Positions 5,874-26,053 of a stretch of 26,053 nucleotides of DNA are shown in pieces. Positions within the stretch are counted from its first letter, which is position 1. The number at the start of each line of letters is the position of its first letter. Both the position numbers and the translations under genes were made by a program. The DNA is from an uncultured Eubacterium sp. (GTDB lineage: Bacteria; Bacillota_A; Clostridia; Lachnospirales; Lachnospiraceae). The DNA lies in the NCBI GenBank assembly GCA_948560485.1, contig CAOXUF010000004.1, positions 1-26,053 of the forward strand, in the 5' to 3' direction. The notes under the pieces are model-generated. The model was not told where the DNA came from. It saw only the letters and a list, made by a program, of their open reading frames with translations, and searched no databases.

Positions 5874-5884
5874 AAGATAAGATT

Positions 5885-6787: not shown

Positions 6788-6816
6788 AGATAATTGTACC
6801 AAAAGGAGTAGTAGAC

Positions 6817-8370: not shown

Positions 8371-8381
8371 GAGATATTGTT

Positions 8382-9629: not shown

Positions 9630-9639
9630 GTGAATAGAT

Positions 9640-10440: not shown

Positions 10441-10455
10441 TAATGGAGGATACTT

Positions 10456-10902: not shown

Positions 10903-10985
10903 AGTTTAAAATAAGAATAAATGATATTGATTTTATATAGCTGTTAAGGTTATACAAAGAAGTATAAAATCATTTGATATTATAA

Positions 10986-11014
10986 TTTACTAGAGGGGCT
11001 ATTTTTGATATAAT
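10986..11014 (+). promoter_or_regulatory. Strong promoter for the D12 methyltransferase
   Basis: TTTACT (10986-10991), a 17-nt spacer and the extended -10 TGATATAAT (11006-11014) make a near-ideal vegetative promoter. Transcription would start near 11021, leaving a leader of under 30 nt that consists mostly of the AAGGAGG site. This separates the methyltransferase unit from the type I operon. Confidence 0.7.
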
Positions 11015-11048
11015 ATTTCTAAATTCAACAAAGGAGGTATTATGTAAA

Positions 11049-13582: not shown

Positions 13583-13686
13583 ACTTTATCTATTTTACCT
13601 ATATAAAAAAGGTAAGATTAGCAGAGTTAATTTTACTATAAGATAAAGATAATAAGTGAAATAAATAAGTGAAAGAGGTGACTGAG

Positions 13687-13878
13687 ATGAATGAGATTTT
13701 TCTTACATCAACAGAGTTTGCAAAGGCGATTGGAATATCATTATCAACATTAAAGAATTGGGAGAGAGATGATATTATTCATCCGTATATGAGAACACCA
13801 ACAGGTAAACGCTTATATACACAGGCTCAGGTAGAGAGTTATTTTAGCAAGTATAGGGTAAAGGAGGCTGATGAGTAA
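13687..13878 (+). CDS. Single-domain MerR-type HTH protein
   Basis: A 63-residue DNA-binding protein made of one MerR-like winged helix-turn-helix: TSTEFAKAIGISLSTLKNWERDD forms the HTH and TPTGKRLYTQAQVESYF the wing and following helix. It lacks the coiled coil and effector domain of true MerR regulators and looks like the excisionase or small regulator type found on mobile elements. I chose ATG 13687 over an in-frame GTG at 13669 because AGAGGTG lies just before it. The stop overlaps the next start (TAATG), so the two genes are translationally coupled. Related domains occur in the genes at 15538 and 17402. Confidence 0.85.
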   Translation: MNEIFLTSTEFAKAIGISLSTLKNWERDDIIHPYMRTPTGKRLYTQAQVESYFSKYRVKEADE

Positions 13879-14549
13879 TGAGGATAAAGGAGAAGCCTGA
13901 TATAGAAGATGTCATTTTCCCATCAGACACATCAGATACAACAGAGCCATTTAAAGATACAGAGGAAATTTCGCATATGACCTCGACAAGCCCAACATCC
14001 TCCGTATCTATCAAGACAGAGTTATCTCGTGAAGCTGAGATAGCAGAGTTAGAACTTTTACTTGCGGAATTTCCAGATACACGCTTTCATCGCAAGAAGA
14101 GAAAAGAGATAGAAGCTCATCGAAAGGAGCTAATAAAAGCACAGCAATCAGAGGAAAGAGAGAAATTAAGATTAGCACAGCAGACTCGCAAAGAAGAGAA
14201 GAGATATGCGAAATGGGCGAAGAAGTCTGTAGATGCCGAGACTATGACAAAGATTGCAGAGGAGCATCAGAAAGAATCCCTTGCAAGAGATAGAAAGCGT
14301 AGGGCAAGGAGAAGAAAGATAGATAAGATTTTTAGTATGATTGGCAAGGCGATATTGGTAATATCTGTGATATTTGGGGTACTCAGTCTTTCAAACGAGA
14401 ATGTTCGCAGCAAGATAAGTCATATGTTTTATAATTTTTATAAGTTTGTAAGAAGCTGGACAGATAACCCTGTAGAAACAGGAGATAGTATTCCAGAAAT
14501 AGATAATAATGAGATAGGTTTTACCATTGAAGATGAGCCTGTTTATTAA
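13878..14549 (+). CDS. Single-pass membrane protein with charged coiled-coil tail
   Basis: Unknown 223-residue protein. Residues 1-50 are Ser/Thr/Asp-rich and probably disordered. Residues 50-155 are a very charged Glu/Lys/Arg helix likely to form a coiled coil, ending in a basic cluster (RKRRARRRK). One membrane segment follows (about 158-177, IGKAILVISVIFGVLSLS), then an external acidic tail of about 45 residues. The positive-inside rule puts the long helix in the cytoplasm. A GGGGTA site lies inside the membrane-segment codons. It overlaps the preceding HTH gene by 1 nt. The layout resembles membrane anchors of conjugation or secretion machines, but no family is recognised. Confidence 0.75.
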   Translation: MRIKEKPDIEDVIFPSDTSDTTEPFKDTEEISHMTSTSPTSSVSIKTELSREAEIAELELLLAEFPDTRFHRKKRKEIEAHRKELIKAQQSEEREKLRLAQQTRKEEKRYAKWAKKSVDAETMTKIAEEHQKESLARDRKRRARRRKIDKIFSMIGKAILVISVIFGVLSLSNENVRSKISHMFYNFYKFVRSWTDNPVETGDSIPEIDNNEIGFTIEDEPVY

Positions 14550-14726
14550 AAATAGAAGTTGTATTTTGTCTAACTCTTTATAAAATGGGGTACGATTTTT
14601 CCTCTTATTTTAAGCCCCTTGTTACCCTCTGATATTTCTCATCTTTTTCCTGATATAACCTTGAAAATACTCTGTTTTAGAGTTATACTACCATACCATC
14701 AAACAATAAAGGGTGGTGGTAAAATA

Positions 14727-15041
14727 ATGGAGCAGATGAAAGTAAGCAGTATTATAAGGGCGTATCCAAATGCTTTTGTATTGGCTCAAGCGGTAAAGCG
14801 TAATGCTTTTGGGGCAATAGAGATGGCAAATGTAATGAGTGTATGTCACACCAAGCAAGAGGCTTTCACTAATCAAGTAATATTTAGAATGGTAGGAGTA
14901 AAGACATTCCTGATACCAACATTTGAAGAGCCAGAAGAAGCAGTACATATTATAATGTCAAAGGAAGAGTACAAGACAGAGCCACTTTTAAGCCCATCGG
15001 ATTATGCGATGATTTTCAGGCAGTATTATGACATGGATTGA
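14727..15041 (+). CDS. Hypothetical protein, 104 aa
   Basis: Unrecognised small soluble protein. I chose ATG 14727 because AGGGTGGTGG lies just upstream; the frame stays open to an ATG at 14619 with no ribosome binding site, and the extra 36 residues look non-coding. The sequence has alternating hydrophobic strands and helices (SSIIRAYPNAFVLAQAVKRN; VKTFLIPTF) and no cysteine pairs or membrane segment. It is flanked by GGGGTA sites at 14587 and 15047 and followed by the long stem-loop at 15087-15179. Confidence 0.65.
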   Translation: MEQMKVSSIIRAYPNAFVLAQAVKRNAFGAIEMANVMSVCHTKQEAFTNQVIFRMVGVKTFLIPTFEEPEEAVHIIMSKEEYKTEPLLSPSDYAMIFRQYYDMD

Positions 15042-15537
15042 TATTTGGGGTACTTTTTCAAGAAAATGAATAAGTGTATGAGTTTTAAAGGAAGTATATC
15101 ATAGTATTCATAAAACAGGTCATATCATTTTTTAGATAAATGATTGATTTACTGTTTTGGGGTACGATATACTTCTTTTCTTATAAAGAGATAGATATTC
15201 TTCCATAAAAGAATAATAAAATTTTCCAATGTAATCTGTTTTATTTTAAGTTCTTATGTTGAAAAGTAAGTATCTTATCAATTTTTTCTTTTACATAAGC
15301 CAGTTCAAGTATTGCAACTTCTATTTCCATAAACCAATATAAAGATAATCTACTATAAAGGCTTATAAAAATAAGAAATATAGTAACAAGTGTATTTTCC
15401 TTTAGAGGAAGTGTCTTTGTATCAGCAGTTGAGATAATAGTTGGTATACCTAAAACAAATGGGGTATCAACAGACAGCATAGCAGTTCTAAGAAAGAGAA
15501 AATCAATCAATAATAATCAGAAAGGCGGGCGATTTAT
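15042..15537. other. 496-nt gene-poor region with structured RNA and possible remnant
   Basis: No + strand gene is supported. It holds GGGGTA sites at 15047, 15159 and 15461, the nested stem-loop at 15087-15179, and a - strand open frame (15510 to 15241) whose translation includes LYSRLSLYW and KEKIDK, resembling a - strand frame at 24220-24023. That frame has only a TTG or an internal ATG start and no ribosome binding site, so it may be a decayed gene. Confidence 0.5.
15087..15179 (+). ncRNA. Nested stem-loop, candidate structured RNA
   Basis: Three coaxial stems: 15087-15100 with 15166-15179 (14 pairs, one G-U), AAAACAG 15112-15118 with CTGTTTT 15152-15158, and ATCATTT 15124-15130 with AAATGAT 15138-15144 around a 7-nt loop. 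The 7-nt internal-loop strand 15159-15165 is exactly GGGGTAC. The 3' arm ends in TTCTTTT, so it might also work as a terminator for the gene ending at 15041. Confidence 0.5.
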
Positions 15538-16086
15538 ATGACATCAAAAGAGTTTGCAAAAGCAATCAGAGTCAGCAGTACTTTATTATTTAAGTGGAGA
15601 CAATCAGGAGTTTTAGTGCCTGAGTATAGATTACCTACAGGGAAATGTTTTTACTCTGAGGAGCAAGTTGAAAAGTACAAGAATGGAGATTACAAAGTAA
15701 AAGATGAGAGTGATTTCCTTTCCATACGAGAGTTCTCAGATGAGATTGGAGTACCTGTTGGTACTTTGGATGAATGGGAAAAGACAGGCAGATTAAAGCC
15801 TGACCATTATAATGAGCATGGTCACAGGAAGTACACAAAGAAGCAAGTTGAAAAGTATCGTAATGGAGATTACGATGGTATTCGAGAGGAAGGTTTCATC
15901 AATAGAGAAGACTTTGCAAGTCTAATTGGGGTATCCGAGTCAACGCTTGCTAATTGGAATAAGAAGGGCTTGTTATGCCCAGACCATAAGAGTATTACTA
16001 GGATATGGCAGTACCGCCAAGACCAAGTAGAAGAAGCAGAGAAGATTAAGATAAGAAATCAGGGTAGAAGTAAAACTTTAATATAA
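15538..16086 (+). CDS. Triple tandem MerR-type HTH protein
   Basis: A 182-residue protein built from three successive MerR-like helix-turn-helix units: residues 1-50 (TSKEFAKAIRVSSTLLFKW, then LPTGKCFYSEEQVEKYK), 58-110 (SIREFSDEIGVPVGTLDEWEK, then GHRKYTKKQVEKYR), and 118-168 (NREDFASLIGVSESTLANWNKKG, then RIWQYRQDQVEEAEK). The first two are followed by a near-identical NGDY linker, which points to internal duplication. No other domain is present, so it should bind an extended or repeated DNA site. AAAGGCGGGCG lies upstream of the ATG. It shares its domain with the small proteins encoded at 13687 and 17402. Confidence 0.85.
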   Translation: MTSKEFAKAIRVSSTLLFKWRQSGVLVPEYRLPTGKCFYSEEQVEKYKNGDYKVKDESDFLSIREFSDEIGVPVGTLDEWEKTGRLKPDHYNEHGHRKYTKKQVEKYRNGDYDGIREEGFINREDFASLIGVSESTLANWNKKGLLCPDHKSITRIWQYRQDQVEEAEKIKIRNQGRSKTLI

Positions 16087-16174
16087 TTTTTCTTTTATCA
16101 ATGTTTCTACATAGGTTATGTTATTATCTATTTTTCTTTTCATTTTCTTCCATATAGGCGAAACTGCCAAAATG

Positions 16175-16210
16175 ACATGTATCATAACCACCTGATAGGG
16201 ATGTTTTTTT
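16175..16210 (+). terminator. Possible intrinsic terminator
   Basis: ACAT and TATCA (16175-16184) can pair with TGATA and ATGT (16193-16204) across an uneven internal loop, followed by seven Ts (16204-16210). The stem is weak, but its place 90 nt after the triple-HTH gene fits termination. Confidence 0.4.
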
Positions 16211-16309
16211 ATAAGAAAATATTTTGTGAGATGTGCCTTATAGGTATTTTAAGTTTTTATGTAAAATAGTGATATTATTTTGGGGTACGATATAAAACAA
16301 AAAAATCCC

Positions 16310-16366
16310 TTGACAAACCTCAACTTTTGAGTGATAAATACACCTACCAAAGAAGGAGAGGTGTAT
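16310..16366 (+). promoter_or_regulatory. Promoter and inverted repeats of the amidoligase gene
   Basis: TTGACA (16310-16315), a 17-nt spacer and GATAAA (16333-16338) form a promoter. CTCAA and TTGAG flank three bases in the spacer, a likely operator half-site pair. ATACACCT (16338-16345) and AGGTGTAT (16359-16366) form a perfect 8-bp inverted repeat around GAAGGAG, the ribosome binding site of the next gene. The start point falls near the left arm, so this second repeat may act as DNA operator rather than RNA hairpin. Confidence 0.6.
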
Positions 16367-16370
16367 TATT

Positions 16371-17291
16371 ATGAAGAAGAGTAGGGAAGAATTTTTAGAG
16401 TCGATGAAAAGTCAAGAGTTTGGATTGGAATTAGAGCTGACAGGTATTAGCAGGCATGAGGTGGAAAATATTATAGCAACCTATTTTAATGATAATGACC
16501 TGATTGATTATCAGGGCAGGCAATGGACAGTAAAGTATGATGGCAGTATTTTTGCTTATAAGAGATGTGGAGATAAGCTAATACCTGTATCCAGTGGTGA
16601 TTATAAGGTAGAGCTTGTAACGCCAATCCTTGAGTATGGGGATATTTCAATGTTTGAAGAGCTGATTGGTATGATAAAGAAATCAGGTGGGGTATCAGGC
16701 TCTAAGTACCGCACAGGGTTTCATATTCATATATCAGAGCAGGGGCAAAACGAAGCAACGTTAAGAAATCTGATACGATTAATGAGTGCAAGACAATACT
16801 TGTTAGAAAGGGCTTTACAGATACCAGATTCAAGATTATCAAGGTATTGCCAGCATGTAGATTCTAAGTTATCCAGCCGATGTAATAAAAAGTTTAAGGA
16901 TATGGAGGCATTACATAAGGCATGGGATAATACCTCTGACCGATATAGCATGTTAAATCTAAGCAGCCTTTTTGACGGGAAAGGGATTGAGCTTCGTATG
17001 TTTAATGGCACATTAAATCTCAATAAGATAAAGGCTTATATTCAGTTTAGCCTTGCTTTGTGCCAGTCAGCAAGGGATTTAACAAGATGCAGTTCTATGA
17101 TACCAATAAATAATGGAAATGATTTGTATGTTATGCGGACATGGCTTTGCCGCATGTATTTAAATGGCGATGAGTTTAAGGTTTGCCGCAAAGAGATGTG
17201 TAAGCATTTACATGGCGAGAGTGCTTTTGCAAATCCATATGCCAGAAAGAAAGGGGAGAGTTTTACAGAAGAGGAATTACCTTTTTATTAA
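16371..17291 (+). CDS. Amidoligase-like enzyme (GS-fold COOH-NH2 ligase family)
   Basis: Predicted ATP-dependent enzyme forming amide or peptide-like bonds, of the putative amidoligase family with a glutamine-synthetase-like fold. Visible motifs: GLELEL with metal-type glutamates 20 and 22, the DGSI...KVELVTPIL block (about 64-92), FHIHIS (His118, His120), YSMLNLSSL, and the C-terminal GIELRMFNGTLN (Glu207, Arg209). This order matches the family. It is cytoplasmic. Such ligases are found on phage, plasmids and surface-modification loci, where they are thought to modify peptides, peptidoglycan or proteins. The nearby secreted proteins and membrane proteases may be its partners (inference). It has its own promoter at 16310 and a terminator at 17358. 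Confidence 0.82.
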   Translation: MKKSREEFLESMKSQEFGLELELTGISRHEVENIIATYFNDNDLIDYQGRQWTVKYDGSIFAYKRCGDKLIPVSSGDYKVELVTPILEYGDISMFEELIGMIKKSGGVSGSKYRTGFHIHISEQGQNEATLRNLIRLMSARQYLLERALQIPDSRLSRYCQHVDSKLSSRCNKKFKDMEALHKAWDNTSDRYSMLNLSSLFDGKGIELRMFNGTLNLNKIKAYIQFSLALCQSARDLTRCSSMIPINNGNDLYVMRTWLCRMYLNGDEFKVCRKEMCKHLHGESAFANPYARKKGESFTEEELPFY

Positions 17292-17357
17292 AAATCAGAG
17301 TTTTACTTATTTTGAAAGTTTTATCCATTTTGTAAGTTCTGTTTAAAATAAATCGAC

Positions 17358-17401
17358 ATCACTCTAATCTATTATCAAAGGTAGATAGGAGTGATTTTTT
17401 T
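17358..17401 (+). terminator. Terminator that contains the next gene's ribosome binding site
   Basis: ATCACTC (17358-17364) pairs with GAGTGAT (17389-17395), with an inner ATCTA/TAGAT pairing (17367-17371 with 17382-17386), followed by seven Ts ending at 17401. The ATG of the next gene is at 17402, and its AGGAG (17387-17391) lies in the 3' side of the stem, so folding both ends the amidoligase transcript and hides that site. Confidence 0.75.
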
Positions 17402-17587
17402 ATGTTATCAGTTAGAGAAGTAGCCGAGATATTCCAAACAACACCACAGACCATATATACATGGGTAAGCAAGGGTATCTTAAAGCCTGATATTCAAACA
17501 CCAACAAACAGGAGATATTTTTCAGAGGAGCAGATAAATAGGGTATTAAAAGGAGGGATTTCTAATGAAGAGGTTAAAGAGATTTAA
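17402..17587 (+). CDS. Single-domain MerR-type HTH protein
   Basis: A 61-residue protein consisting of one MerR-like winged HTH: VREVAEIFQTTPQTIYTW forms the HTH and TPTNRRYFSEEQINRVL the wing and following helix. It has the TPT(N/G)(R/K)R wing pattern of the protein at 13687 and the first unit of the protein at 15538. The start follows directly on a terminator T-tract, with the ribosome binding site inside the terminator stem. Its last 23 nt overlap the start of the protease gene at 17565, implying coupled translation and a likely role in regulating it. Confidence 0.82.
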   Translation: MLSVREVAEIFQTTPQTIYTWVSKGILKPDIQTPTNRRYFSEEQINRVLKGGISNEEVKEI

Positions 17588-18272
17588 AAAGTTCATATTG
17601 ATAGTGCTAATAATTAGTTTACCAATGATTATTGCCTATAAGATTATACAAGCAGTTGAAACAGAGGAGCTTCAAGATAAATGCTTAACAAAGGTATCAA
17701 AAGATACTGCAAAGATAAAAGAATGTATCATAACATCAGGAGAGATTTCTGAAGATACAATCAAAGAAGTTTGTAAAATCATCCAGACACAAGTACCTGA
17801 TGAGGCTTGGAATTATCTGGTCAATTCAGGAGGAAAGCTGATTCTTGTAGAAGGTAATGATATTAAGGATTATGTATTGGAACATTATGGTGATGAGGCA
17901 AGAGAGTATAAGAAGATAACAGGCTATTGCCCATATGATTATAGGATAAAGCACTTATGGGGTATCAATGTTGGAGTATTACAAAAGGTGGATGTCATTA
18001 TCGCCCAAGACTGCTTAAAAGGTTTAGTACATGAGTTTTGCCATGTACTCGATTATTCGCATGATTACAGTAAAACAAAGGAGTTTCAATCATTTTATGA
18101 TAATGAAGATAAGATATTAGAAAAGGTATTTCAGGATGAGGAAAAAGTAAGTTATTATGCAAGAAATCATAAGGAGTTTTTTGCTGAATTGTCAGCACAG
18201 TATATAAAGGGCAATCTAAATGGGGTAGACAGCAAGTTAGAAGATTATTTATCTAAGATGCTACAACATTGA
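17565..18272 (+). CDS. Membrane-anchored lethal-factor/PPEP-like zinc protease
   Basis: Predicted zinc metalloprotease of the anthrax lethal factor catalytic-domain type (ATLF, MEROPS M34), the group that includes clostridial Pro-Pro endopeptidases. A basic N-terminus and one hydrophobic segment (about residues 6-27) anchor it outside the membrane. The zinc motif is HEFCH (His156, Glu157, His160); the third ligand is Glu204 in KEFFAE, and Tyr197 lies seven residues earlier, the same spacing as Tyr728 and Glu735 in lethal factor. All catalytic residues are present. The gene overlaps the preceding HTH gene. A second such protease lies at 18924. The substrate is unknown. Confidence 0.8.
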   Translation: MKRLKRFKKFILIVLIISLPMIIAYKIIQAVETEELQDKCLTKVSKDTAKIKECIITSGEISEDTIKEVCKIIQTQVPDEAWNYLVNSGGKLILVEGNDIKDYVLEHYGDEAREYKKITGYCPYDYRIKHLWGINVGVLQKVDVIIAQDCLKGLVHEFCHVLDYSHDYSKTKEFQSFYDNEDKILEKVFQDEEKVSYYARNHKEFFAELSAQYIKGNLNGVDSKLEDYLSKMLQH

Positions 18273-18305
18273 TATGGAATACATATTTCATCATATTTTT
18301 ACCAA

Positions 18306-18345
18306 TTTCATATTTTAGCTGATATGATTCATCATTAGTGTATTC
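18306..18345. repeat. Module-border motif, copy 2
   Basis: ATATGATTCATCA at 18322-18334 with TTTCATATTTT before and TTAGTGTATT after, the same layout as copies near 13559 and 25888. It lies between the first protease gene and the 18624 gene. Confidence 0.5.
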
Positions 18346-18385
18346 AATTTTATAGCTTACTATAAAAGTTGAAGATGGTAGTTTA

Positions 18386-18412
18386 CTATCTGAGTTATCA
18401 GATAGGTTTTTA
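18386..18412 (+). terminator. Short perfect hairpin with T-run
   Basis: CTATCTGA (18386-18393) and TCAGATAG (18398-18405) form a perfect 8-bp stem with a GTTA loop, followed by GTTTTT. It may terminate transcription from the protease gene or end a small RNA starting after the TACTATAAAAG stretch near 18357. Confidence 0.5.
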
Positions 18413-18449
18413 GAGATGTATTTTTACAGGAAAGGAAGTGAAGATTTTG

Positions 18450-18575
18450 TAGTAGTTTCAGTGTAGTTTTTAAATAGTAGTTTCAGTTTATAGTAGTTTA
18501 CTCATAATAGAGATTGAGTTGAAAAATAGTAGTTTTTAATAGTAGTTTGAGTTGTAATTTATTTATTAGTAGTTT
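18450..18575 (+). repeat. Cluster of six TAGTAGTTT repeats
   Basis: Exact TAGTAGTTT at 18450, 18475, 18491, 18527, 18540 and 18567, with a degenerate copy near 18462, all in the same orientation. Spacings are 25, 16, 36, 13 and 27 nt. Several are extended by (C/G/A)AGTT. The 351-nt gap 18273-18623 contains no gene I can support. The cluster resembles iterons or a multi-site operator upstream of the 18624 gene, but the irregular spacing argues against a classic iteron origin. Confidence 0.6.
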
Positions 18576-18623
18576 AAGTTTAGAAAGACAAGTTGAAATA
18601 CACAAGGAAAGGAGAGTTGCTTT

Positions 18624-18866
18624 ATGAATAAAACAGTTTGGAAAGTATTTTTACTGATTGGAGTTTTAGTTGCTATCTTCCTTATCTGGCAGTTAGTATT
18701 TAAAGATGGTGGTATTCTTAAAACTGGTTATAACGCTCTTGTTGAGGGTATTAATGGTCAGTGGGCGAAAGTCGCTGGTACAGGCAAGAAGATTTTACCG
18801 ACATGGGGCGAGACAGGTGCAACAGACGGCAGCAAAGCAGATGGTTTTACAATCGATACCGATTAA
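18624..18866 (+). CDS. Small membrane protein, 80 aa
   Basis: Unrecognised. A hydrophobic segment at residues 7-25 (VFLLIGVLVAIFLIWQLVF) is followed by a Gly-rich polar tail with Trp residues, ending in an acidic TIDTD. It could be a single-pass anchor or a pilin-like or holin-like subunit; the sequence does not decide. AAAGGAGAG lies upstream of the ATG. A strong terminator follows at 18876, so it can be expressed at a different level from the protease gene downstream. Confidence 0.72.
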   Translation: MNKTVWKVFLLIGVLVAIFLIWQLVFKDGGILKTGYNALVEGINGQWAKVAGTGKKILPTWGETGATDGSKADGFTIDTD

Positions 18867-18875
18867 TTATGTGAG

Positions 18876-18905
18876 AAGGCTGTTATCATGCGATAATAGC
18901 CTTTT
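18876..18905 (+). terminator. Intrinsic terminator after the 18624 gene
   Basis: AAGGCTGTTATC (18876-18887) pairs with GATAATAGCCTT (18892-18903) through 12 pairs including one G-U, with an ATGC loop and a short T-run. Read-through would feed the protease gene at 18924, so it may act as an attenuator. Confidence 0.85.
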
Positions 18906-18923
18906 CAAGGAGAAGGTGTATCT

Positions 18924-19535
18924 ATGAAGAGAGTAAGATTAAATATCTGTCTGGTTTCTATTTGGGGTATGGTCTTAATATTAATTTTACTTTGTATCAG
19001 AAAACAGCCTGAGACTATGTACCAACACCGCAAGGACAGCGAGATAGAGCCAATAAATGAATATTTATATTGTGAGAAAGGCTGTTCTAAGGATGAGATA
19101 AAAGAGATTTTAACATTAATAGAGTATTTACCGCCATCTTTGCTTGATGCGTTTAGACAGGAAAATGGAACAATCATTTTAGTATCTGACCTGAAGGGCG
19201 GCTGTATCGGAAGTACCGAAATAGAGCCTGATAATATCACTATTTATATACAAGATGGTTATGTATTTGATTCCCTGATACATGAGTTTGGTCATATTTA
19301 TCTTCATTTTCACCCAATGGAAGAAGAATTTAAGGAGCTTTTTCAGACAGAGGCAAAATCGCTAATAACTGCGTACTATGGCGATAGCCCCTATTATTAC
19401 ACCAATGAGAAAGAGTATTTTGCACAAGCCTTTCAGACAGTTTTGTGTATGGGTGGGCATGATACGCAAGAAGCAGCACCAGATACATTTCATTACATGA
19501 GTAGGTTAATTGGTGAGATGTTCGATGAAAAGTAA
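18924..19535 (+). CDS. Second membrane-anchored lethal-factor/PPEP-like protease
   Basis: A 203-residue metalloprotease related in active-site layout to the product of 17565. An N-terminal hydrophobic segment (about residues 8-26) anchors it to the membrane. The zinc motif is HEFGH (His120, Glu121, His124). The C-terminal YYYTNEKEYFAQAF gives Glu164 as third ligand and Tyr157 seven residues before it, close to the lethal factor pattern Y-x3-N-x2-E. Outside the motifs it differs much from the first protease, so the two probably have distinct substrates. AAGGAGAAGG precedes the ATG. A 10-nt repeat TTCGATGAAA occurs at its 3' end (19521) and in the leader of the next gene (19552). Confidence 0.8.
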   Translation: MKRVRLNICLVSIWGMVLILILLCIRKQPETMYQHRKDSEIEPINEYLYCEKGCSKDEIKEILTLIEYLPPSLLDAFRQENGTIILVSDLKGGCIGSTEIEPDNITIYIQDGYVFDSLIHEFGHIYLHFHPMEEEFKELFQTEAKSLITAYYGDSPYYYTNEKEYFAQAFQTVLCMGGHDTQEAAPDTFHYMSRLIGEMFDEK

Positions 19536-19574
19536 TCTTTGGGGTATGTTCTTCGATGAAAGGAAGTGAGTTTT

Positions 19575-20225
19575 ATGGATAAGGAAAAGATTGAAAAACC
19601 AGAAGATGAAATGGATAAGGATAGTCAGTTACAAGATAAGCAGCCAGATGAGGATGAAATAATGGATATTATTGCAGAAGAGAAGATTGCAAAGTTAGAA
19701 GATGATGAAAGAAAACAGTTAAAAAAGAATAAAAAGTTAAGACATAAAGTAGGTATCCGCAATGTAATTATTCTTATTTTAATTGTCATCATTATTATTT
19801 TACTTCTCCGTTCCTGTTCTGGAGATACAAATGATAGTAGAGTTAACAAGCCTGAGTTGGAACAAGCCGAGTACATACAGCCTGATGATGTAGCGGATAT
19901 GGAGCATATGGAGGGTACAACAGCCATTCCAGTCATCAGTGATTTTACGGTAAGAAAGAGTTATCCTTATGCAACCTTATTTAATCCTGAAAGCAATCTG
20001 GGGTATTCTTATCTTTCCTACAAATTTACAGATTTGAGTACAGGAAAGGTCATTTACGAGTCCAAGTTAGTTGAAGCTGGCAAGAAGTTTAGCGTTGCCT
20101 TTGGAGATTTGCTGGATATTGGCACATATCAGGTATCTGTTGATATTTATTCCTATGATTATACAGACCCAACGATACAGAAGAATGGCGGACATAGCGA
20201 TATTACTTTAACCGTAACCGAGTAG
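19575..20225 (+). CDS. Single-pass membrane protein with external beta-rich domain
   Basis: Unknown 216-residue protein. Residues 1-60 are highly acidic and lysine-rich (cytoplasmic), a long hydrophobic Ile/Leu/Val segment spans about 66-85 and ends in RSC, and the outside part (about 90-216) has the look of a beta sandwich (GYSYLSYKFTDLSTGKVIYESKLVEAG...). I chose ATG 19575, 8 nt after AAGGAAG, over an in-frame GTG at 19566. Its layout parallels the protein encoded at 13878. It lies between the protease gene and two secreted proteins and may anchor or receive them (inference). Confidence 0.75.
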   Translation: MDKEKIEKPEDEMDKDSQLQDKQPDEDEIMDIIAEEKIAKLEDDERKQLKKNKKLRHKVGIRNVIILILIVIIIILLLRSCSGDTNDSRVNKPELEQAEYIQPDDVADMEHMEGTTAIPVISDFTVRKSYPYATLFNPESNLGYSYLSYKFTDLSTGKVIYESKLVEAGKKFSVAFGDLLDIGTYQVSVDIYSYDYTDPTIQKNGGHSDITLTVTE

Positions 20226-20250
20226 CAAAGAAGCATTAAGATATAATAAG

Positions 20251-20320
20251 AAAACAGCAAGCATCAAAAATAATAAGAATTAAGATATATTAAAAACAGC
20301 AAGCATCAAAAAATAATAAG
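20251..20320 (+). repeat. 27-nt direct repeat upstream of the secreted protein gene
   Basis: A 27-nt unit beginning AAAACAGCAAGCATCAAAAA at 20251-20277 recurs at 20293-20320 with one extra A. The spacing is 42 nt. It fills the 118-nt leader of the 20344 gene and may be a recent duplication or a pair of binding sites. Confidence 0.75.
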
Positions 20321-20343
20321 ATATTTGAAAGGAGCGATTTGTT

Positions 20344-20865
20344 ATGAGAAAGAAACTTGTAGGTTTACTGATGACCATGACTTTGATTGGAGGAGCGATT
20401 CCAGCGTATGCACAGGATATTGCTGTAACAGGCGATAATGCTACAGGAAGTTCCCCAACATCATTTAGCGTTACAGCCGATATGCTTGGCGGTGATTTAA
20501 TTGTAACTGTACCAGATACGCTGACTTTGGAGTATGACCAGACAAACAGCCGATTTGCAAAGACTTCTCAGGTAAATGCAAAGGGTAATATTAATCCAGC
20601 AAAGAAGTTAGAGGTATCTGTTCCAACCTCTGTAACTTATGTACATACAGATGATGCAGATGTAGATGCGGCAGGCACTTTAAGTTTTGGGGTATCTGAT
20701 GGTGATAACCAAAAAGAGACATGGTCAGCAAGTGCGTTAAGAGCTGGAAAAACAGCAGGAGTGGATAAAGATTTAACATCGACAGTTCCTATGAGCGAAG
20801 TTGAGTATATCGGCACATATGAGGCAACAGTTACATTTCAGATAGCATTAGTAAATGCAGAGTAA
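20344..20865 (+). CDS. Secreted single-domain surface protein
   Basis: A 173-residue exported protein. The signal peptide has a KK charged start, a hydrophobic core and a probable cleavage after AYA (residue 23). The mature protein is one all-beta-looking domain with the blocks SVTADMLGGDLIVTVPD, LSFGVSDGDNQKETWSASAL and VEYIGTYEATVTFQIAL, all of which recur in the first 170 residues of the next gene product. No LPXTG, membrane tail or cysteine pair is present, so anchoring is unclear. AAAGGAG precedes the ATG and a strong terminator follows, consistent with high independent expression as for a fibre or coat subunit (inference). Confidence 0.82.
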   Translation: MRKKLVGLLMTMTLIGGAIPAYAQDIAVTGDNATGSSPTSFSVTADMLGGDLIVTVPDTLTLEYDQTNSRFAKTSQVNAKGNINPAKKLEVSVPTSVTYVHTDDADVDAAGTLSFGVSDGDNQKETWSASALRAGKTAGVDKDLTSTVPMSEVEYIGTYEATVTFQIALVNAE

Positions 20866-20894
20866 GAAATAAAGAAGTTTCATGTAAACTAGAA

Positions 20895-20934
20895 AAAGGG
20901 AGCTTAATGCAGAATCGTTAAGTTCCCTTTCTTA
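20895..20934 (+). terminator. Intrinsic terminator after the 20344 gene
   Basis: AAAGGGAGCTTAA (20895-20907) pairs with TTAAGTTCCCTTT (20918-20930) through 13 pairs including one G-U, with a 10-nt loop and a short T-rich tail. Confidence 0.85.
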
Positions 20935-20970
20935 AAAAGAGTTTAAGCAACTTTTGAAAGGAGAAAAAGC

Positions 20971-23139
20971 ATGGTATATAAGAGATTATTAGCTGGTATG
21001 TTAAGCTGTTTTATAGTAGCTTCATCAGGTGGGGTATCAGCCTTTGCAGATACAAAAACAGCCGATACTTCTTTTACAGCGACAGCGGATATGCTTGGCG
21101 GTGGTTTGATTGTAACGATTCCTGACAATGTAGCCCTTACAAAGTCAGGAGATGAGTTTGTAGGCACTGGTAAAGTAACAGCTCAGGGTATTACAAGCCC
21201 AAAGTCAGTTTTATCAGTTTCAACCAATCCTAAGATAACGTATGCGAACCAGTATAAGAGTGATATTACAGTGGATGCATCGGTTTCGTTTGGTACAGAT
21301 TGTAGTGCAAGCTGGACAGCTTCAGAATTAAAGGCGAATTTAACAGCAGAGCCTAAATTGGGGTATGATATCACCGCAACGGTGCCATTTTCTAAGATTG
21401 ACTATATAGGAACCTATCAGACCAACATTTTATTTAATATTTCGTTAAGTACAAATGATAAGGCAATGACTTATTATATGGGCTATAAATATTCTGATAG
21501 TTCCGATGTAAGTTATGCAAACCAGTATGATATTGCTTATGATATTCTTCCACAGACCGATATGGTGGCGGAATTAAAAGAGTTTAGTACCAATAAAGAA
21601 GAGATAGAGGCAAAAGGGTATGATATGGTGATTGAGTCCTCTGATAAAAACCTTGTAATTCCAAGAAGTATGGAAGATATACAGGTCGTTGGGGTATGTT
21701 TTGAGACTCTGTTTTCAGAGGCTGAGATTGCCGCTTATATCGAGGAAGTGGAAGTGCCTGACAGTGTGAAAGGTGTAGAGTTAAGTAATAGTGAAACTTC
21801 CATTTCCACAGCGATTATCACATGCGATAATGTAAGGTCAGCAGTGAATGTTTCCAAGAAACTTCCTGATACAGCAAAAATCAGGTTTAAGTTTGAAGCA
21901 AATGGGGAAAGAGATTACACCGAGTTTTTCGATTATCATTATGAAAATGGAAAGTATTATGTCTGTGGATTTTCACAGTATGGCTATGACACATTAAAAA
22001 GTTATGGCACAGATTCTATGGTAGAGATTTCATTGCCTGTTACTTATAATGGAAGTAGAGGCGTAGCACAGATAGCTGGTATCCGAAGCGATGTTGCTGG
22101 GGCAGAGATTGATTTTTCAGACTCTCTTTCTGATAGTGATATGCCACAGCAGGAATGGGTATTACCTGACAATTATGATTCTTGTCTTGGATTTTGGTGC
22201 AGTGGCTTTGATGTAAGCAATCCTTGTACCAAGTTAAAAAGTGTAACCTTTAATGAAGGTCTTACAGAGATTCACAGTGACGCCTTTAAATACTGTACAG
22301 GTCTTGAGAGCGTAGTGATTCCAAGTTCAGTCACAATAATTAAGAGCGATGCATTTTATGGCTGTACCAATTTAAAAAATGTGGTATTTAAAGATGGTTT
22401 TGATGGCAGCATAGAGGATAATGCGTTTATGGATACAGGTATTATAGAGGTGACATTGCCCGATTCCTGTACAAGTTTAAATGGGTATGCATTTGGTAAT
22501 AATGAGAGTTCAAATGGATATAATTCTAATGTAGCCAAGATAAAATGGGGTATCAGCCATGATACTGCTGAAGTAACCAATTCATCAGGACTTATGTATA
22601 CATTGATAAGTTTTTCAGATGGAGATTATATTGGAGCAGATTCAAAAGCAGTAAAGGCAATCGCAACATCTGATGATGGGGTAAGTGCTGTTTTATCCTG
22701 TGATACCATAGAAAGTTCTTATAAAAATACAGAGGGCAAGGCTTATAAAAATCTGATACTTACAGATAGCATTGTATCTATTGGAAAAAGTGCATTGGAT
22801 GGCTGTACCGCTTCTATCAGTCGTGCGGATTTAAGGAATGCAGTCACTGTTGGGACATGGGCATTTTGTGATACGACTATTGATACCTGTATTGTAAAAG
22901 ATACCTTTTTAGCAACTGAGTATGTATTTCATGGTGCGAAGATTAAGAATTTATATATTGACTACACTGATTCAGGGGTGACATTAGCGAAGTATGCCAC
23001 AAATAATGCAGTGATAGAGAATGTTTATTTTTCAGGCACAGAGGAGCAGTATATAGAGTTTCTTGGAAGTAGGGCTGGAAATGCTTTAAGGGATAACAAA
23101 GATACAATGAATGTTGTCTATCAGGCTCAGATGCCTTAA
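20971..23139 (+). CDS. Secreted protein with shared N-terminal domain and BspA-type leucine-rich repeats
   Basis: A 722-residue exported protein. The signal peptide ends about AFA (residue 26). Residues 30-170 repeat the domain of the preceding gene (TATADMLGGGLIVTIPD, SASWTASELKANL, IDYIGTYQTNILFNISL). A middle region of about 230 residues is unassigned. From about 420 to 520 there are BspA-type (LRR_5) repeats such as LKSVTFNEGLTEIHSDAFKYC and LESVVIPSSVTIIKSDAFYGC, and weaker ones near 600-690. There is no LPXTG or membrane tail. BspA repeats usually mediate host or matrix binding. It reads as a fusion of the small surface domain to an adhesin. AAAGGAG precedes the ATG. Confidence 0.85.
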   Translation: MVYKRLLAGMLSCFIVASSGGVSAFADTKTADTSFTATADMLGGGLIVTIPDNVALTKSGDEFVGTGKVTAQGITSPKSVLSVSTNPKITYANQYKSDITVDASVSFGTDCSASWTASELKANLTAEPKLGYDITATVPFSKIDYIGTYQTNILFNISLSTNDKAMTYYMGYKYSDSSDVSYANQYDIAYDILPQTDMVAELKEFSTNKEEIEAKGYDMVIESSDKNLVIPRSMEDIQVVGVCFETLFSEAEIAAYIEEVEVPDSVKGVELSNSETSISTAIITCDNVRSAVNVSKKLPDTAKIRFKFEANGERDYTEFFDYHYENGKYYVCGFSQYGYDTLKSYGTDSMVEISLPVTYNGSRGVAQIAGIRSDVAGAEIDFSDSLSDSDMPQQEWVLPDNYDSCLGFWCSGFDVSNPCTKLKSVTFNEGLTEIHSDAFKYCTGLESVVIPSSVTIIKSDAFYGCTNLKNVVFKDGFDGSIEDNAFMDTGIIEVTLPDSCTSLNGYAFGNNESSNGYNSNVAKIKWGISHDTAEVTNSSGLMYTLISFSDGDYIGADSKAVKAIATSDDGVSAVLSCDTIESSYKNTEGKAYKNLILTDSIVSIGKSALDGCTASISRADLRNAVTVGTWAFCDTTIDTCIVKDTFLATEYVFHGAKIKNLYIDYTDSGVTLAKYATNNAVIENVYFSGTEEQYIEFLGSRAGNALRDNKDTMNVVYQAQMP

Positions 23140-23153
23140 TGTTCAGAGGAAGG

Positions 23154-23187
23154 GATGGCTTACCTGAGAGGGAGAGCCATCTTTTTT
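23154..23187 (+). terminator. Intrinsic terminator after the LRR protein gene
   Basis: GATGGCT (23154-23160) pairs with AGCCATC (23175-23181), with an inner CCT/AGG pairing, followed by six Ts. This hairpin shows that an in-frame ATG at 23155 is not the start of the next gene. Confidence 0.85.
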
Positions 23188-23217
23188 CATGGTAAAGTGG
23201 TTAGAGAGGTGATAAAA

Positions 23218-23844
23218 GTGATTCAAGATGAAAAGTTGGAAGATGTAAGTATTTACATTTCTAAGGCAGAAGATAGGATATTAAAGAATATTGGAGTATC
23301 TGATTTCTACCATGCTTTAAAGCGATTTGATACAGAAACATTTACCCATTCACAGGAAGTAGCAGGATTAGCGGTACTTATCGGGGTAAAAAGAGGATTT
23401 TCAGAGGAGAGATTGGTAAATTTAGCAATATCAGGGTATCTGCATGACATTGGCAAGATTTTTACAGGGATTGGTATTATAGGCAAGAAAGGCTGTTTAA
23501 CCGCAAAGGAGTATGCGATTGTAAAAGAGCATCCTATTGTGGGGTATAGACATTTAAAGAATTTTATTCAAGATGAAGAAATCTTATCAGGTATTCTTCA
23601 ACATCATGAGAGGCTTGATGGAAGTGGGTATGTAGACCAGATGTGGGGAGATGAAATAAGTGAGTTTGGAAAAGTGATTGCTGTTGCTGATGTATTTTGT
23701 GCCATGACATCTGTAAGGGCATATAAGAGTGCCTATCCGCCAATGCAGGTAATACAGCAGATGGTTTACTCAGAAGGATTTGACCATGAATTGATTGATA
23801 TATTGGTTTCTTTTTGTTCAGATGGAAAATTGAAGGTATCTTAA
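23218..23844 (+). CDS. HD-GYP-like phosphohydrolase
   Basis: A 208-residue protein of the HD superfamily, HD-GYP branch; such enzymes hydrolyse cyclic di-GMP or other phosphodiesters. It has LHDIGKI (His76, Asp77), the KEHPIVGYRHL block, HHERLDGSGY (from His129), and the C-terminal VIAVADVFCAMTSVRAYKSAYP motif. The GYP triplet reads GYV and the usual GL after it is QM. I chose GTG 23218 because AGAGAGGTG lies 6-7 nt before it and the upstream ATG at 23155 is within a terminator stem. No receiver or membrane domain is attached. It may tune surface-protein expression through a nucleotide signal (inference). Confidence 0.85.
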   Translation: MIQDEKLEDVSIYISKAEDRILKNIGVSDFYHALKRFDTETFTHSQEVAGLAVLIGVKRGFSEERLVNLAISGYLHDIGKIFTGIGIIGKKGCLTAKEYAIVKEHPIVGYRHLKNFIQDEEILSGILQHHERLDGSGYVDQMWGDEISEFGKVIAVADVFCAMTSVRAYKSAYPPMQVIQQMVYSEGFDHELIDILVSFCSDGKLKVS

Positions 23845-23851
23845 AAAAGAT

Positions 23852-23889
23852 AATAAGGCTTGCCGATAGCTGGCAGGTCTTATTTTTTT
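23852..23889 (+). terminator. Intrinsic terminator after the HD-GYP gene
   Basis: AATAAGGCTTGCC (23852-23864) pairs with GGCAGGTCTTATT (23872-23884) through 13 pairs including two G-U, followed by a seven-T run. Confidence 0.9.
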
Positions 23890-23949
23890 GCCCACAAGAG
23901 AAGAAAGAGGCAGCTCTTTTGTATTTAAAATTCCAAGATAGATATTTGT

Positions 23950-24069
23950 ATGGCAAGTCTGGAAGGTATTTTTAATGATTGGTCTAAATTTATAAATGGG
24001 GTATGTCCAGTTGGGGATACGTTTACCAATATGTTTTTGGGGATAAAGAATACAGGAATAATCTATTAA
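23950..24069 (+). CDS. Possible 39-aa small protein
   Basis: Open frame from ATG 23950 to TAA 24069, with a plausible amphipathic sequence (IFNDWSKFINGV, then DTFTNMFLGIKNTG). A Gly-Val pair in it is written GGGGTA. There is no clear ribosome binding site, and it follows directly on a terminator, so it may be a remnant. Unknown function. Confidence 0.25.
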   Translation: MASLEGIFNDWSKFINGVCPVGDTFTNMFLGIKNTGIIY

Positions 24070-24157
24070 AAGGCAGGGAGAAAAATAGTTTCCTGTTCAT
24101 ATGGTTTACCATTTCATCAGTTTTTTCTTTGGTATTCCAATATATAACAAATCTATT

Positions 24158-24208
24158 ATAAAGCAGTACAAGTAGAAAAAATATTTTTCTATGAGTTGTA
24201 CTTGCTGA
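24158..24208 (+). repeat. Long imperfect inverted repeat
   Basis: AGCAGTACAA on the left pairs with TTGTACTTGCT on the right with one bulge, and inside it TAGAAAAA pairs with TTTTTCTA. The combined stem is close to 18 pairs. It lies about 50 nt before the 24259 gene and could be an operator, RNA hairpin or remnant. Confidence 0.5.
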
Positions 24209-24258
24209 GTAGGGTAGCACTAATAAGAAAGTTTATTTAAGAAAGGTAGGTAGTAATT

Positions 24259-25098
24259 ATGTATGGTTCAAATGGTTATGTTGGCAAATCTATTATTGAG
24301 AATGGGGTAAAGAATTTGTCAGGTGAAGAGAAGGTAGGAAATTTGTATTGTTTAAATGATTATGCTGAGGTATTTACGAGAGAGAGCGAGGATAAACATT
24401 TTGAGTTAGCAGAGAATATAAGTCGTTTAAATGTTTATATTGAGATGTTTGTAGGACAAGATGAGGATAAGCAGTTTGAGTTGATGAAACAACTGGTAGA
24501 TAAAGATGGTTTTACACACATGTCTTGTACAGGAAGGGGATGTGCTAAGACTGACTATTTTACAAAAGCTGGGTTAGATTATATTTTTGCTTTCACTTAT
24601 GCCATAAGAGAGGGAAGGGAGTATTGTTTACCGATTATTATGGATGTTGAGTTTGCAAAAAGACATTATATGAAAGATGGCAAGTTTGATAAGATTATTC
24701 GATTAAATGGACATAGCAATAAGAATTCGGAACTTACACCAGTTATGGATTATAATGGGAAGAAAAATGTAAAAGTACATAGAGTTTATATGAAGGAGTT
24801 GGGTTATAACATTGAAGGTTTGCAAATTGACCATTTAAGTCATTGTCAAGGTGCGATTACAGAGTTAATGCTAAGACCCTGTACTAATGATGAAAATCAA
24901 TTAAACAAGGTAGGTGTAGAGATAGAAGGTAAAAGTGACTATGAGTATAATGCACTTCAAGATTTTAGATTTTCATTTTGGATTCCTTTTCTTTGTTTTA
25001 TTCTAGGTGTTGTATCTTTTGATGATATGACAAAGTTGAAAGAGATGGAAATTGCTATAAAGAAAAAGAAATTTGCTATGAATTGGTTGTCATATTAA
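24259..25098 (+). CDS. HNH-like protein with hydrophobic C-terminal segment
   Basis: A 279-residue protein whose middle resembles phage-type HNH nucleases: VHRVYMKELGY (His about residue 175) then QIDHLSH (Asp-His) and LMLRPCTNDENQLNK, matching the H...DH...LR..T..EN pattern. The N-terminal 150 residues, with CTGRGCAKTDYF, are unrecognised. The C-terminus contains FSFWIPFLCFILGVVSF, hydrophobic enough for a membrane segment, which would be odd for a homing nuclease. The site AAGGTAGGTAGTA just before the ATG is repeated exactly before the frame at 25811. An alternative is a regulatory or phage-derived protein that has lost nuclease function. Confidence 0.55.
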   Translation: MYGSNGYVGKSIIENGVKNLSGEEKVGNLYCLNDYAEVFTRESEDKHFELAENISRLNVYIEMFVGQDEDKQFELMKQLVDKDGFTHMSCTGRGCAKTDYFTKAGLDYIFAFTYAIREGREYCLPIIMDVEFAKRHYMKDGKFDKIIRLNGHSNKNSELTPVMDYNGKKNVKVHRVYMKELGYNIEGLQIDHLSHCQGAITELMLRPCTNDENQLNKVGVEIEGKSDYEYNALQDFRFSFWIPFLCFILGVVSFDDMTKLKEMEIAIKKKKFAMNWLSY

Positions 25099-25138
25099 AC
25101 AGAGATAAATATTGTTATTCAAGACAATGTAAAAATTG

Positions 25139-25166
25139 GAGTACCTCATGGATGCGTGGGGTACTC
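25139..25166 (+). promoter_or_regulatory. Intergenic hairpin carrying GGGGTAC
   Basis: GAGTACCTCA (25139-25148) pairs with TGGGGTACTC (25157-25166) through 10 pairs including one G-U around an 8-nt loop. No T-tract follows, so it is more likely an RNA processing or binding element between the genes at 24259 and 25191 than a terminator. Confidence 0.6.
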
Positions 25167-25190
25167 ATTCAAAGAAAGGTAGGAATGTTT

Positions 25191-25766
25191 ATGTATTTAA
25201 GAAGTTTTAGTTATTCAAAGCAGTTGACAGGTGAAATGCTTAATGTATTATTTAAGGATTTAGAAGATGATAATGGAAATCTTGAGGATAACCTTAAAAA
25301 TTTTGACTATGGTTTTGAGCTGATTGAGTCTGCACTTGACGGGCGGATTTACCTTGATAAGCCATTCCATTTGCATGGCTGGGTAACAGCGTTTAAGAAT
25401 GGGAAGTATCAAGAAGAGATAGATAAGCTGAAAAGAAGGCAGTATTTCACTGATGATTATGAGGACAGTACGGGAGTAAAGCTATCATCAATTGTGGATA
25501 TGCGTGATGATTATGAGGACATCCTTGATAAGGAAGAACTGGCATATACAGTAAACGAGGTTTGTAACTTAAATAATGAGTTTAAAGCGGATATGGGGAT
25601 TGATTTTATTTTTTGTATGAGAAGGGCTGTACAGGGGATTCCTTTTGCTGTTGAGGAGATAATGAAAATTTGTGCAGAGTATAAAAGGGTTGCTGAATAT
25701 GTAAAAGTTATTTTAAGCAGCGGGGTAGAGTTCCAGACATTGTTCCCTGAGCAGATAGCTTGTTAA
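25191..25766 (+). CDS. Hypothetical protein, 191 aa
   Basis: Unrecognised soluble protein. I chose ATG 25191, 9 nt after AAAGGTAGG; ATG 25185 is too close to that site, and the frame opens further back to 25083 without support. It is acidic and mostly helical, with FDYGFELIESALDGRIYL and DDYEDILDKEEL segments and no membrane or signal sequence. It shares the AAAGGTAGG type of leader with the 24259 gene and the frame at 25811, suggesting these are one module. No function can be assigned. Confidence 0.7.
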   Translation: MYLRSFSYSKQLTGEMLNVLFKDLEDDNGNLEDNLKNFDYGFELIESALDGRIYLDKPFHLHGWVTAFKNGKYQEEIDKLKRRQYFTDDYEDSTGVKLSSIVDMRDDYEDILDKEELAYTVNEVCNLNNEFKADMGIDFIFCMRRAVQGIPFAVEEIMKICAEYKRVAEYVKVILSSGVEFQTLFPEQIAC

Positions 25767-25810
25767 TATTTTAGGTAAGAAAGTAAGTGAAAGAAGGTAG
25801 GTAGTAGCTG

Positions 25811-25909
25811 ATGAATTTAGATGGGGTACTCATATATGAATATAAAAATAAAAAGTTCATTTTAAATATAAATTCATATATCATTTCATATGATTCATCA
25901 ATTATGTAA
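25811..25909 (+). CDS. Possible 32-aa small protein
   Basis: ATG 25811 to TAA 25909, preceded by AAGGTAGGTAGTA (25794-25806), identical over 13 nt to the leader of the 24259 gene, with nearly the same spacing. The product is Asn/Lys/Ile/Tyr-rich. The frame runs through a GGGGTA and the third module-border motif. It may be a real short gene, a leader peptide or the start of a truncated gene. Confidence 0.35.
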   Translation: MNLDGVLIYEYKNKKFILNINSYIISYDSSIM

Positions 25910-25911: not shown

Positions 25912-26000
25912 GTTTTTTATTATCGTTTTTATTTTGTGAAAAATAATATGGTTAAGATAAATTGATTTTATTGATGTTATAAATTTTTTCATAATCAGGG

Positions 26001-26049
26001 GGCTGTCGCTTTAATGAATAAAGATTCGTGAAGCGGCAGTTTCATTTTT
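26001..26049 (+). terminator. Intrinsic terminator at window end
   Basis: CTGTCGCTT (26003-26011) pairs with AAGCGGCAG (26031-26039) through 9 pairs including one G-U, followed by TTTCATTTTT. The stretch 25910-26000 is AT-rich with no gene. Confidence 0.7.
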
Positions 26050-26053
26050 GCTG

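Follow-up and report, generated by a model that had tools for sequence, protein, structure and literature searches.

A 26,053-nucleotide stretch of an uncultured Eubacterium sp. of the Lachnospiraceae (contig CAOXUF010000004.1 of assembly GCA_948560485.1; the whole of it is called the window here) carries the short word GGGGTA 33 times on its plus strand, spread over about 23 kb, and its complement TACCCC not once. The actual unit is TGGGGTA(T/C), not GGGGTA alone, and it is enriched beyond what base composition and codon use account for, as a sharp 7-mer held in one orientation. The same habit is found with other flanking bases in related elements of two other genomes, as GGGGTAA and TGGGTAT in one (G118), where it ends at edges with host DNA, and, on weaker evidence, as GGGGTAT in another (G024). 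We tentatively favour, with rather less than even confidence, the view that a family of elements possesses a polar site, with GGGTA as its core, which is read during element replication or transfer and of which TGGGGTA(T/C) is the version found here.

The word in the window

The window is divided here into a first half (2.3-13.5 kb) and an A half (13.5-26.05 kb), lying to the right of a short piece of host chromosome:

111..2001, plus strand: host-chromosome genes rpsB and tsf at the left edge, without the motif
2860..11824, plus strand: seven TGGGGTA sites of the first half, in the restriction-modification/methyltransferase block (exact count)
14375..25828, plus strand: 26 GGGGTA sites of the A half, 24 of them as TGGGGTA (exact count)

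In the A half, GGGGTA starts at 14376, 14587, 15047, 15159, 15461, 15928, 16282, 16689, 17959, 18222, 18964, 19541, 20000, 20689, 21031, 21360, 21691, 22547, 22678, 23383, 23541, 23998, 24304, 25158, 25722 and 25823, and in the first half at 2861, 4674, 5139, 7077, 7891, 9386 and 11819. An earlier note on this DNA had listed these 26 and seven positions, no TACCCC and an rpsB-tsf region devoid of the motif, and every one of its coordinates proved exact. The strong excess it had claimed was likewise recovered, with 26 sites in the A half against 2.5 expected from a dinucleotide Markov model, under which GGGGTA ranks top among hexamers for both enrichment and strand skew. The same note had placed the enriched block at 14376..25828; the enrichment is there, but these coordinates do not hold as its limit, because the seven TGGGGTA of the first half are an excess too (0.4 expected, Poisson P 2e-7) and the signal therefore begins shortly after tsf rather than at 14.4 kb. 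The base before GGGGTA is T in 31 of the 33 sites, and the base after it T or C in 28. Extended to TGGGGTA, the word occurs 24 times in the A half against 0.7 expected, whereas its one-base neighbours reach 0-5 copies against 0.2-1.5 expected, the most frequent being TGGAGTA (5) and TAGGGTA (4).

Codon use was controlled by shuffling synonymous codons within genes (2000 shuffles), a check that the earlier note had proposed. The genes of the A half hold 18 GGGGTA, out of the reach of the shuffles (4.9 +- 2.0, maximum 14), and 16 TGGGGTA (2.6, maximum 10). Coding sequence of the first half contains six TGGGGTA against 0.56 in shuffles (maximum 4), while its six GGGGTA against 1.3 were just equalled (maximum 6). 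As had also been noted, about half of the Gly-Val pairs in A-half genes are spelled GGG-GTA (12/25), even though GGG is an uncommon glycine codon there (40/205), and the sites occur in all three reading frames as well as in spacers. In fact, eight of the A-half sites are non-coding, a density of 3.2/kb (2474 bp) compared with 1.8/kb for the 18 coding ones (10049 bp). The A-half sites are also spaced more evenly than random (coefficient of variation (CV) 0.61, P 0.003), with a shortest gap of 101 bp (P 0.002). Helical phasing of the sites was considered and is not credible over 23 kb.

Related elements in two other genomes

Relatives were located through genes of the window and not through the motif. 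A DNA search of 200 genomes of the family with the segment 2.3-13.5 kb led to contig C13 of G118, where a GIY-YIG-like gene shows 74% DNA identity, and a methyltransferase profile built from 15 sequences matched 2/200 genomes (contigs G118:C21 and G024:C133). The regions concerned are designated E2 (G118:C13:1-26.7 kb), E3 (G118:C21:53697-68313, 14.6 kb, to the contig end) and E4 (G024:C133, 8.6 kb). E2 has a CcrB-like large serine recombinase at its end (L194:4854-6593) and carries GGGGTAA in a ratio of 30:1 between strands, with 25 copies in genes against 4.4 +- 1.9 in codon shuffles (maximum 11), and the 30 copies in its 26.7 kb compare with seven on the same strand in the other 62.1 kb of C13 (P 2e-10). 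E3 holds GGGTA at 67:5, against 19.6 and 6.7 expected; 56 copies are coding, compared with 20.6 in shuffles (maximum 31 of 500), and across its edge the count falls from 67 in 14.6 kb to four in the 9.7 kb on the left (P 4e-11), where the genes look, by eye, like host pcrA and an RlmD/RumA-type methyltransferase gene. Two words are common to E2 and E3, GGGGTAA (30 and 13; jointly 43:2) and TGGGTAT (23 and 17), and because of this the two are probably the ends of one element split over two contigs; no overlap between these contigs was found, and E2 and E3 were counted as the element of one host, not as two replicates. Taken as one element, G118 has both marks of an integrative element, a site-specific recombinase and an edge on host genes; in the window the left edge alone can be seen, and a recombinase was not detected.

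The rest of G118 served as a control. In 76 other stretches (1.33 Mb) GGGTA occurs 726 and 739 times on the two strands against 944 and 888 expected, and none has five or more GGGGTAA per strand; in nine further stretches, several chosen as dense-looking, the highest count for 20 kb is 6:1 (L202), and the whole genome has 286 and 212 GGGGTAA in 4.9 Mb. A scan of all 7-mers in 94 loci of at least 9 kb placed TGGGGTA of the window first by fold enrichment and GGGGTAA of G118:C13 (17 vs 1.05, one in reverse) 24th, the ranks between being taken mostly by words of 8-11 copies. Under stricter terms (at least 12 copies, a strand filter and distinct contexts; 180 loci, 314 segments, 3.1 Mb, including loci L142-L151, which had been picked for motif clusters, with E4 falling under the length limit), GGGGTAA of C13 came third, behind two window words. 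Other loci have unrelated words at 10-16 fold (for example GTGCTGA in L058, 12 vs 0.77); fold enrichment alone is thus not unique to E2, and it is the shared core that singles this locus out. Ranked by GGGGTA density, the leading segments were the A half of the window, L190, L198, L190 again and L194. Another feature of the G118 element, seen by eye, is a mostly non-coding region of ~1.5 kb (L190:9700-11280) with ~60-base repeats on the minus strand.

In E4 all nine GGGGTA are GGGGTAT and lie on one strand (9:0, 0.6 expected), and five GGGGTAT are coding compared with 0.8 in shuffles (maximum 4). The background of G024 (20 stretches, 215 kb) has 18 and 13 GGGGTAT against 8.4 and 5.3 (31 vs 13.7), and at most eight GGGGTA per 20 kb on one strand, but even with all background sites assumed on one strand the E4 count keeps a P of 7e-6. 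With respect to the conservation of sites in homologous elements, on which the earlier note had staked its claim, the oriented habit with its GGGTA core is kept and the flank varies, whereas individual sites were not found conserved. What the earlier note had suggested about selection on the DNA or RNA itself, in an element-specific and strictly polar manner, is supported by the shuffles, the 33:0 orientation and the edges in G118.

An origin by chance, from biased codon use or through a mutational tendency of G-rich DNA, to which the G-rich motif strand and the 10-16-fold 7-mers of other loci might point, is scarcely to be believed. It has to contend with the dinucleotide and codon-preserving controls, with one-base neighbours that stay near background, with the recurrence of the GGGGTA core in loci that had been selected through homologous genes and with the sharp element edges, and we regard it as refuted for the window and for E2/E3; the refutation is weakest for E4 alone.

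Core genes and cargo

The genes of the window that are shared with E2-E4, together with its right end, are as follows:

10456..10902, plus strand: GIY-YIG-like protein, recognized by eye, with no Pfam match; 79% identical to the E2 protein
11049..13474, plus strand: D12-class N6-adenine DNA methyltransferase, by homology; homologues in E3 and E4
13669..13878, plus strand: MerR/HTH_17 single-domain protein; homologues in E2 and E3
13878..14549, plus strand: membrane protein (by eye), directly 3' of the small HTH gene
24259..25098, plus strand: HNH-like protein (HR...DH...N..N); homologue in E4
25999..26053, no strand: end of a repeated insertion sequence (IS)-like sequence

The motif accompanies a core made up of the methyltransferase, the small MerR/HTH_17 and membrane proteins and the HNH-like protein, and not the cargo. 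All three loci with the D12-family methyltransferase carry it (window, G118:C21 and G024:C133), and in a second methyltransferase search G024 was the sole match of 33. The pair formed by a small MerR/HTH_17 gene followed by a membrane protein gene is found in the window and in E3, where the likely counterpart of the membrane protein (L290:3516-4124, also downstream of a small HTH gene) is 26% identical over a gapped alignment. E4 contains a homologue of the HNH-like protein of the window, which is rare elsewhere, at E 1.8e-11, and shares with E3 a GmrSD-like protein (E 1.9e-72). The HNH-like signature is similar in four paralogues of E2; the name relies on this signature and on a Pfam match below threshold (E 0.02), the structure models being of low to middling confidence (predicted local distance difference test (pLDDT) 66 and 58).

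One may ask whether the word is the target of the D12 N6-adenine methyltransferase itself, possibly acting together with the HNH-like protein, in which case N6-methyladenine on one strand would mark the old or transferred strand as self. The presence of the motif at all three methyltransferase loci and its absence from most loci with only the GIY-YIG-like or restriction genes agree with this, as do the single adenine per strand in the core and the HNH-like gene, which is single where there is one variant of the word (window, E4) and fourfold where there are several (E2), the elements being incomplete. Modification sites, however, need no enrichment, and the co-occurrence at three loci may just mean that both are parts of the core. 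Moreover, the window methyltransferase is split into two overlapping open reading frames (ORFs; 11049-13163 and 13136-13474), while its relatives P0005-P0018 are single proteins of 776-878 amino acids; it has no Pfam match of its own, the E3 homologue matching PF02086. The split is a broken gene or a sequencing error and the enzyme may not be active, and altogether we consider a methylation target distinctly unlikely.

Still less probable, and in our judgement very unlikely, is a site of operator or nucleoid type recognized by the small MerR/HTH_17 proteins, as the earlier note had envisaged in proposing a binding site for the HTH proteins of the element. Small HTH genes are indeed shared by the window, E2 and E3, and the window has several copies (three paralogous domains at 15538-16086 and one at 17402-17587). 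Nevertheless, orientations of 33:0, 43:2 and 9:0 are unlike a plain double-strand operator, which this polarity therefore disfavours, and 18/26 of the A-half sites lie inside genes. Intergenic repeats of the type TTCATAT...TTCATCA (13527-13572, 15120-15151, 18290-18335 and 25856-25901) are more operator-like, and are possibly the operator for the small HTH proteins.

Loci related to the window through cargo alone mostly lack the word. In restriction-gene relatives of ~70% DNA identity (G190, G064 and G050), all 12 aligned places, which correspond to five window sites, are without TGGGGTA. The restriction and surface-protein cargo loci were counted for TGGGGTA only, and none of those of at least 9 kb is among the 14 densest GGGGTA segments. 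The motif was not brought along in 30 amidoligase loci (each 2.6-3.9 kb), nor is it present in locus L193, the weak match found for a 173-aa surface protein in 1/299 genomes. An element from IMG/VR in which the GIY-YIG gene is present, represented by three contigs that overlap, has no GGGGTA against 4.9 expected (L212). The plasmid and phage collections yielded no relative of the block DNA 13476-21400, of the GIY-YIG protein or of a 1124-aa E2 protein, which was found in G118 as the sole genome (1/60) and in one metagenome protein at 61%; the 25083-25766 protein has none in plasmids and the 20344-20865 protein none in phages, while amidoligase relatives are present in these collections. Viral scans with other baits found nothing.

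The GIY-YIG gene allows orthologues with and without sites to be compared directly, since it contains three GGGGTAA in G118 and none in the window or IMG/VR orthologues. Where the window reads GGA GGT CAT, AGA GGT AAA and CGA GGA AAT, G118 reads GGG GGT AAG, AGG GGT AAA and AGG GGT AAT; two of the three sites differ synonymously only, and the first also requires a His-to-Lys change. Because both other orthologues lack the sites, we infer that the G118 gene gained them rather than that the others lost them. These differences, as read from the aligned codons, indicate selection, or a very specific drive, acting on the nucleic acid.

Several other features of the window were recorded. The region 2382-10902 is a defence-like block with type I restriction genes, an Exo_endo_phos protein, the GIY-YIG-like protein and, within the restriction operon, an FRG-domain protein (PADLOC PDC-S15). 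An Amidoligase_2 gene (16371-17291) has relatives in 55 phage records, including gut Firmicutes phages and eight Arthrobacter phages. Two small paralogues (17565-18272 and 18924-19535) match the Pfam metallopeptidase family ATLF (E 1e-6 and 6.5e-10) and are probably secreted or membrane-anchored. The spacers 15042-15537, 16087-16370 and 23845-24258 consist of partly similar DNA with possible minus-strand ORFs (LYSRLSLYW / LYNRFVIYW) and could be decayed genes or encode small peptides. A second word, CTGATA/TATCAG, is enriched on both strands at 13500-26053 (15/16, vs 3.2 for CTGATA), and in L198 and L211-L213 TATCAG is likewise abundant on one strand. Rfam and tRNA scans of the window gave no match. 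The terminal 55 bases are 76-95% identical to an IS-like end in about 35/397 family genomes, and such a repeat likely explains why the contig stops at 26053.

Host chromosomes, known polar words and the putative reader

In order to ask whether the word belongs to the host chromosome, it was counted in 299 genomes of the family and 299 of the phylum (the draws overlap by a few) and in four of the nearest genus, all relatives of the window's own genome, which is outside these sets. None approaches the density of the window, and the counts are similar to those of a reversed-word control; the highest density is ~0.22 per kb with both strands summed (G415), whereas a single strand of the window has ~1.3 per kb. 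By its rpsB and tsf the host belongs to the Lachnospiraceae, and the nearest relative counted (G001, with a Tsf 91% identical) has 146 TGGGGTA in 2.6 Mb. Among relatives, 80 loci that carry tsf mostly contain GGGGTA no more often than expected, local TGGGGTA clusters on the chromosomes of relatives (L142-L151) comprise at most five sites per 20 kb, and no donor with a genome-wide excess was found among the 299 phylum genomes.

A Chi site for AddAB, the first reading offered in the earlier note, or an orientation site for host FtsK/SpoIIIE would fit a motif that is G-rich, polar and leading-strand in sense. Although the word is enriched on the gene-sense strand of the window (33:0), the over-representation across the host chromosome that Chi would entail is not seen in relatives, so that a host AddAB Chi finds no support in the close relative or in the genus, family and phylum genomes. 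In addition, the word is densest in accessory DNA, varies by element and stops at the element edges in G118, and this confinement disfavours host Chi and translocation sites alike. We hold such a site to be highly improbable; the genome counts reject it, and for these hosts it stands refuted, barring a difference between the window's own genome and its genus.

Similarities to known polar words are nonetheless evident. FtsK orienting polar sequences (KOPS) are G-rich, polar and in leading-strand sense, and together with the SpoIIIE recognition sequences (SRS) and the architecture imparting sequences (AIMS) they are distributed chromosome-wide and graded towards the terminus. Like the element word these are strand-biased short words serving a polar process (FtsK/SpoIIIE in the case of KOPS and SRS), but the element word ends at element edges, being confined to the element in G118 and without host-wide excess. 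The TraB recognition sequences (TRS) of Streptomyces plasmids, whose reader is the TraB translocase, are element-specific, with a specificity that differs by element, and are clustered at clt. The window sites, unlike these, run throughout the element with no such clustering, and no TraB or FtsK-like protein was detected among the proteins searched. Chi sites are short, G-rich, polar, over-represented and found within genes, traits which the element word has as well. In comparison with the Chi sites of RecBCD/AddAB (PMC8022716), which are the host's and are spread over the chromosome, the element word is confined to the element and varies between elements.

Returning to the polar site of an element family, we infer that one strand is read by element-encoded or recruited machinery during replication or transfer. 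A family of integrated elements of the Lachnospiraceae would keep the site on one strand throughout its own DNA; should replication proceed in the direction of the genes, that strand, gene-sense and G-rich, would form the template of the lagging strand, and it could also be the transferred strand. The occurrence of different flanks on a common core suggests that the reader comes with the element and that its specificity drifts. A density of ~1-2 sites per kb and the even spacing in the window would fit a site needed at regular distances, the candidates being a priming site for an element primase and a stop or orientation site for a translocating enzyme. A single-strand event of either kind would best account for orientation, density and even spacing, and we favour a priming-type site, whose flank would drift with enzyme specificity. 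The primase of phage T7 uses 5'-(G/T)2GTC-3', a lagging-strand site of which the genome of ~37 kb contains ~26 strong copies (PMC12839067). It resembles the element word in its G/T run, in GT followed by one base and in a close density, but differs in comprising five bases and a flank instead of seven, and GTC instead of GTA; T7 primase may serve as a working analogue, not as a relative.

Several observations weigh against this reading. No primase, helicase or other reader was recognized among the proteins searched, which did not comprise every ORF of elements that are themselves incomplete, and we know of no primase that requires seven bases. The evenness of spacing is not seen in E2 (CV 0.95, P 0.48). 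E4 taken alone is weaker evidence because the background of G024 is raised; shuffles equal its five coding GGGGTA (maximum 6), all its GGGTA together number 14 vs 7.6, and elsewhere in G024 GGGTA reaches 0:10 within 8.6 kb. Furthermore, since nearly all genes run with the motif, a signal acting at the transcript level would be expected to give a very similar pattern. Such a signal, UGGGGUA or the corresponding word of the non-template strand, would be bound along long operons by an RNA-binding protein or elongation factor of the element, and the motif does lie on the sense strand of plus-strand genes. In E2 the sole convincing minus-strand gene (8965-9306, 342 bp) contains one GGGTA in its own sense direction, the plus strand there being free of the word; this is a single case. 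GGGGTAA is also less dense in non-coding than in coding DNA of E2 (0.85 vs 1.21 per kb), and both observations lean towards RNA. Leaning away from it are the site at 2861, located just past a terminator-like hairpin (by eye) and ahead of any obvious promoter of the next gene, and a non-coding density above the coding one in the A half and in E4 and about equal to it in E3; no elongation factor or RNA-binding family was recognized among the proteins searched. We consider a transcript-level signal unlikely, though a serious competitor.

A wider form of the polar-site proposal, possible but on balance doubtful, is that the word is a one-strand identity code, with GGGTA as its core and flanks proper to each lineage, which an element-encoded reader would use for priming or D12 methylation and in which cargo would gradually be re-spelled. 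The reader would then tell the transferred or lagging-template strand from host DNA, and the re-spelling of cargo is suggested by the GIY-YIG gene of G118 and by the lower density of sites in the window's restriction block.

Among 5.39 million papers searched for it, none contains the complete word TGGGGTA, and in literature searches on polar words of elements, Firmicutes Chi, primase sites and strand bias, KOPS/TRS in conjugation and AIMS no such report was recognized. The polar DNA words known to date, such as Chi and KOPS, belong to our knowledge to chromosomes. Here, integrated elements appear to carry a polar word of their own, with a shared core and lineage flanks, strong enough to alter codon choice. 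The reader becomes searchable as a protein common to motif-bearing elements in which the residues contacting DNA or RNA change with the flanking bases, and it would be expected to prefer the flank of its own element, TGGGGTAT as opposed to GGGGTAA. Computationally, the motif may further be used as a tag to detect such elements and to date their cargo, and it points to a so far unrecognized activity by which elements of abundant gut bacteria read sequence.

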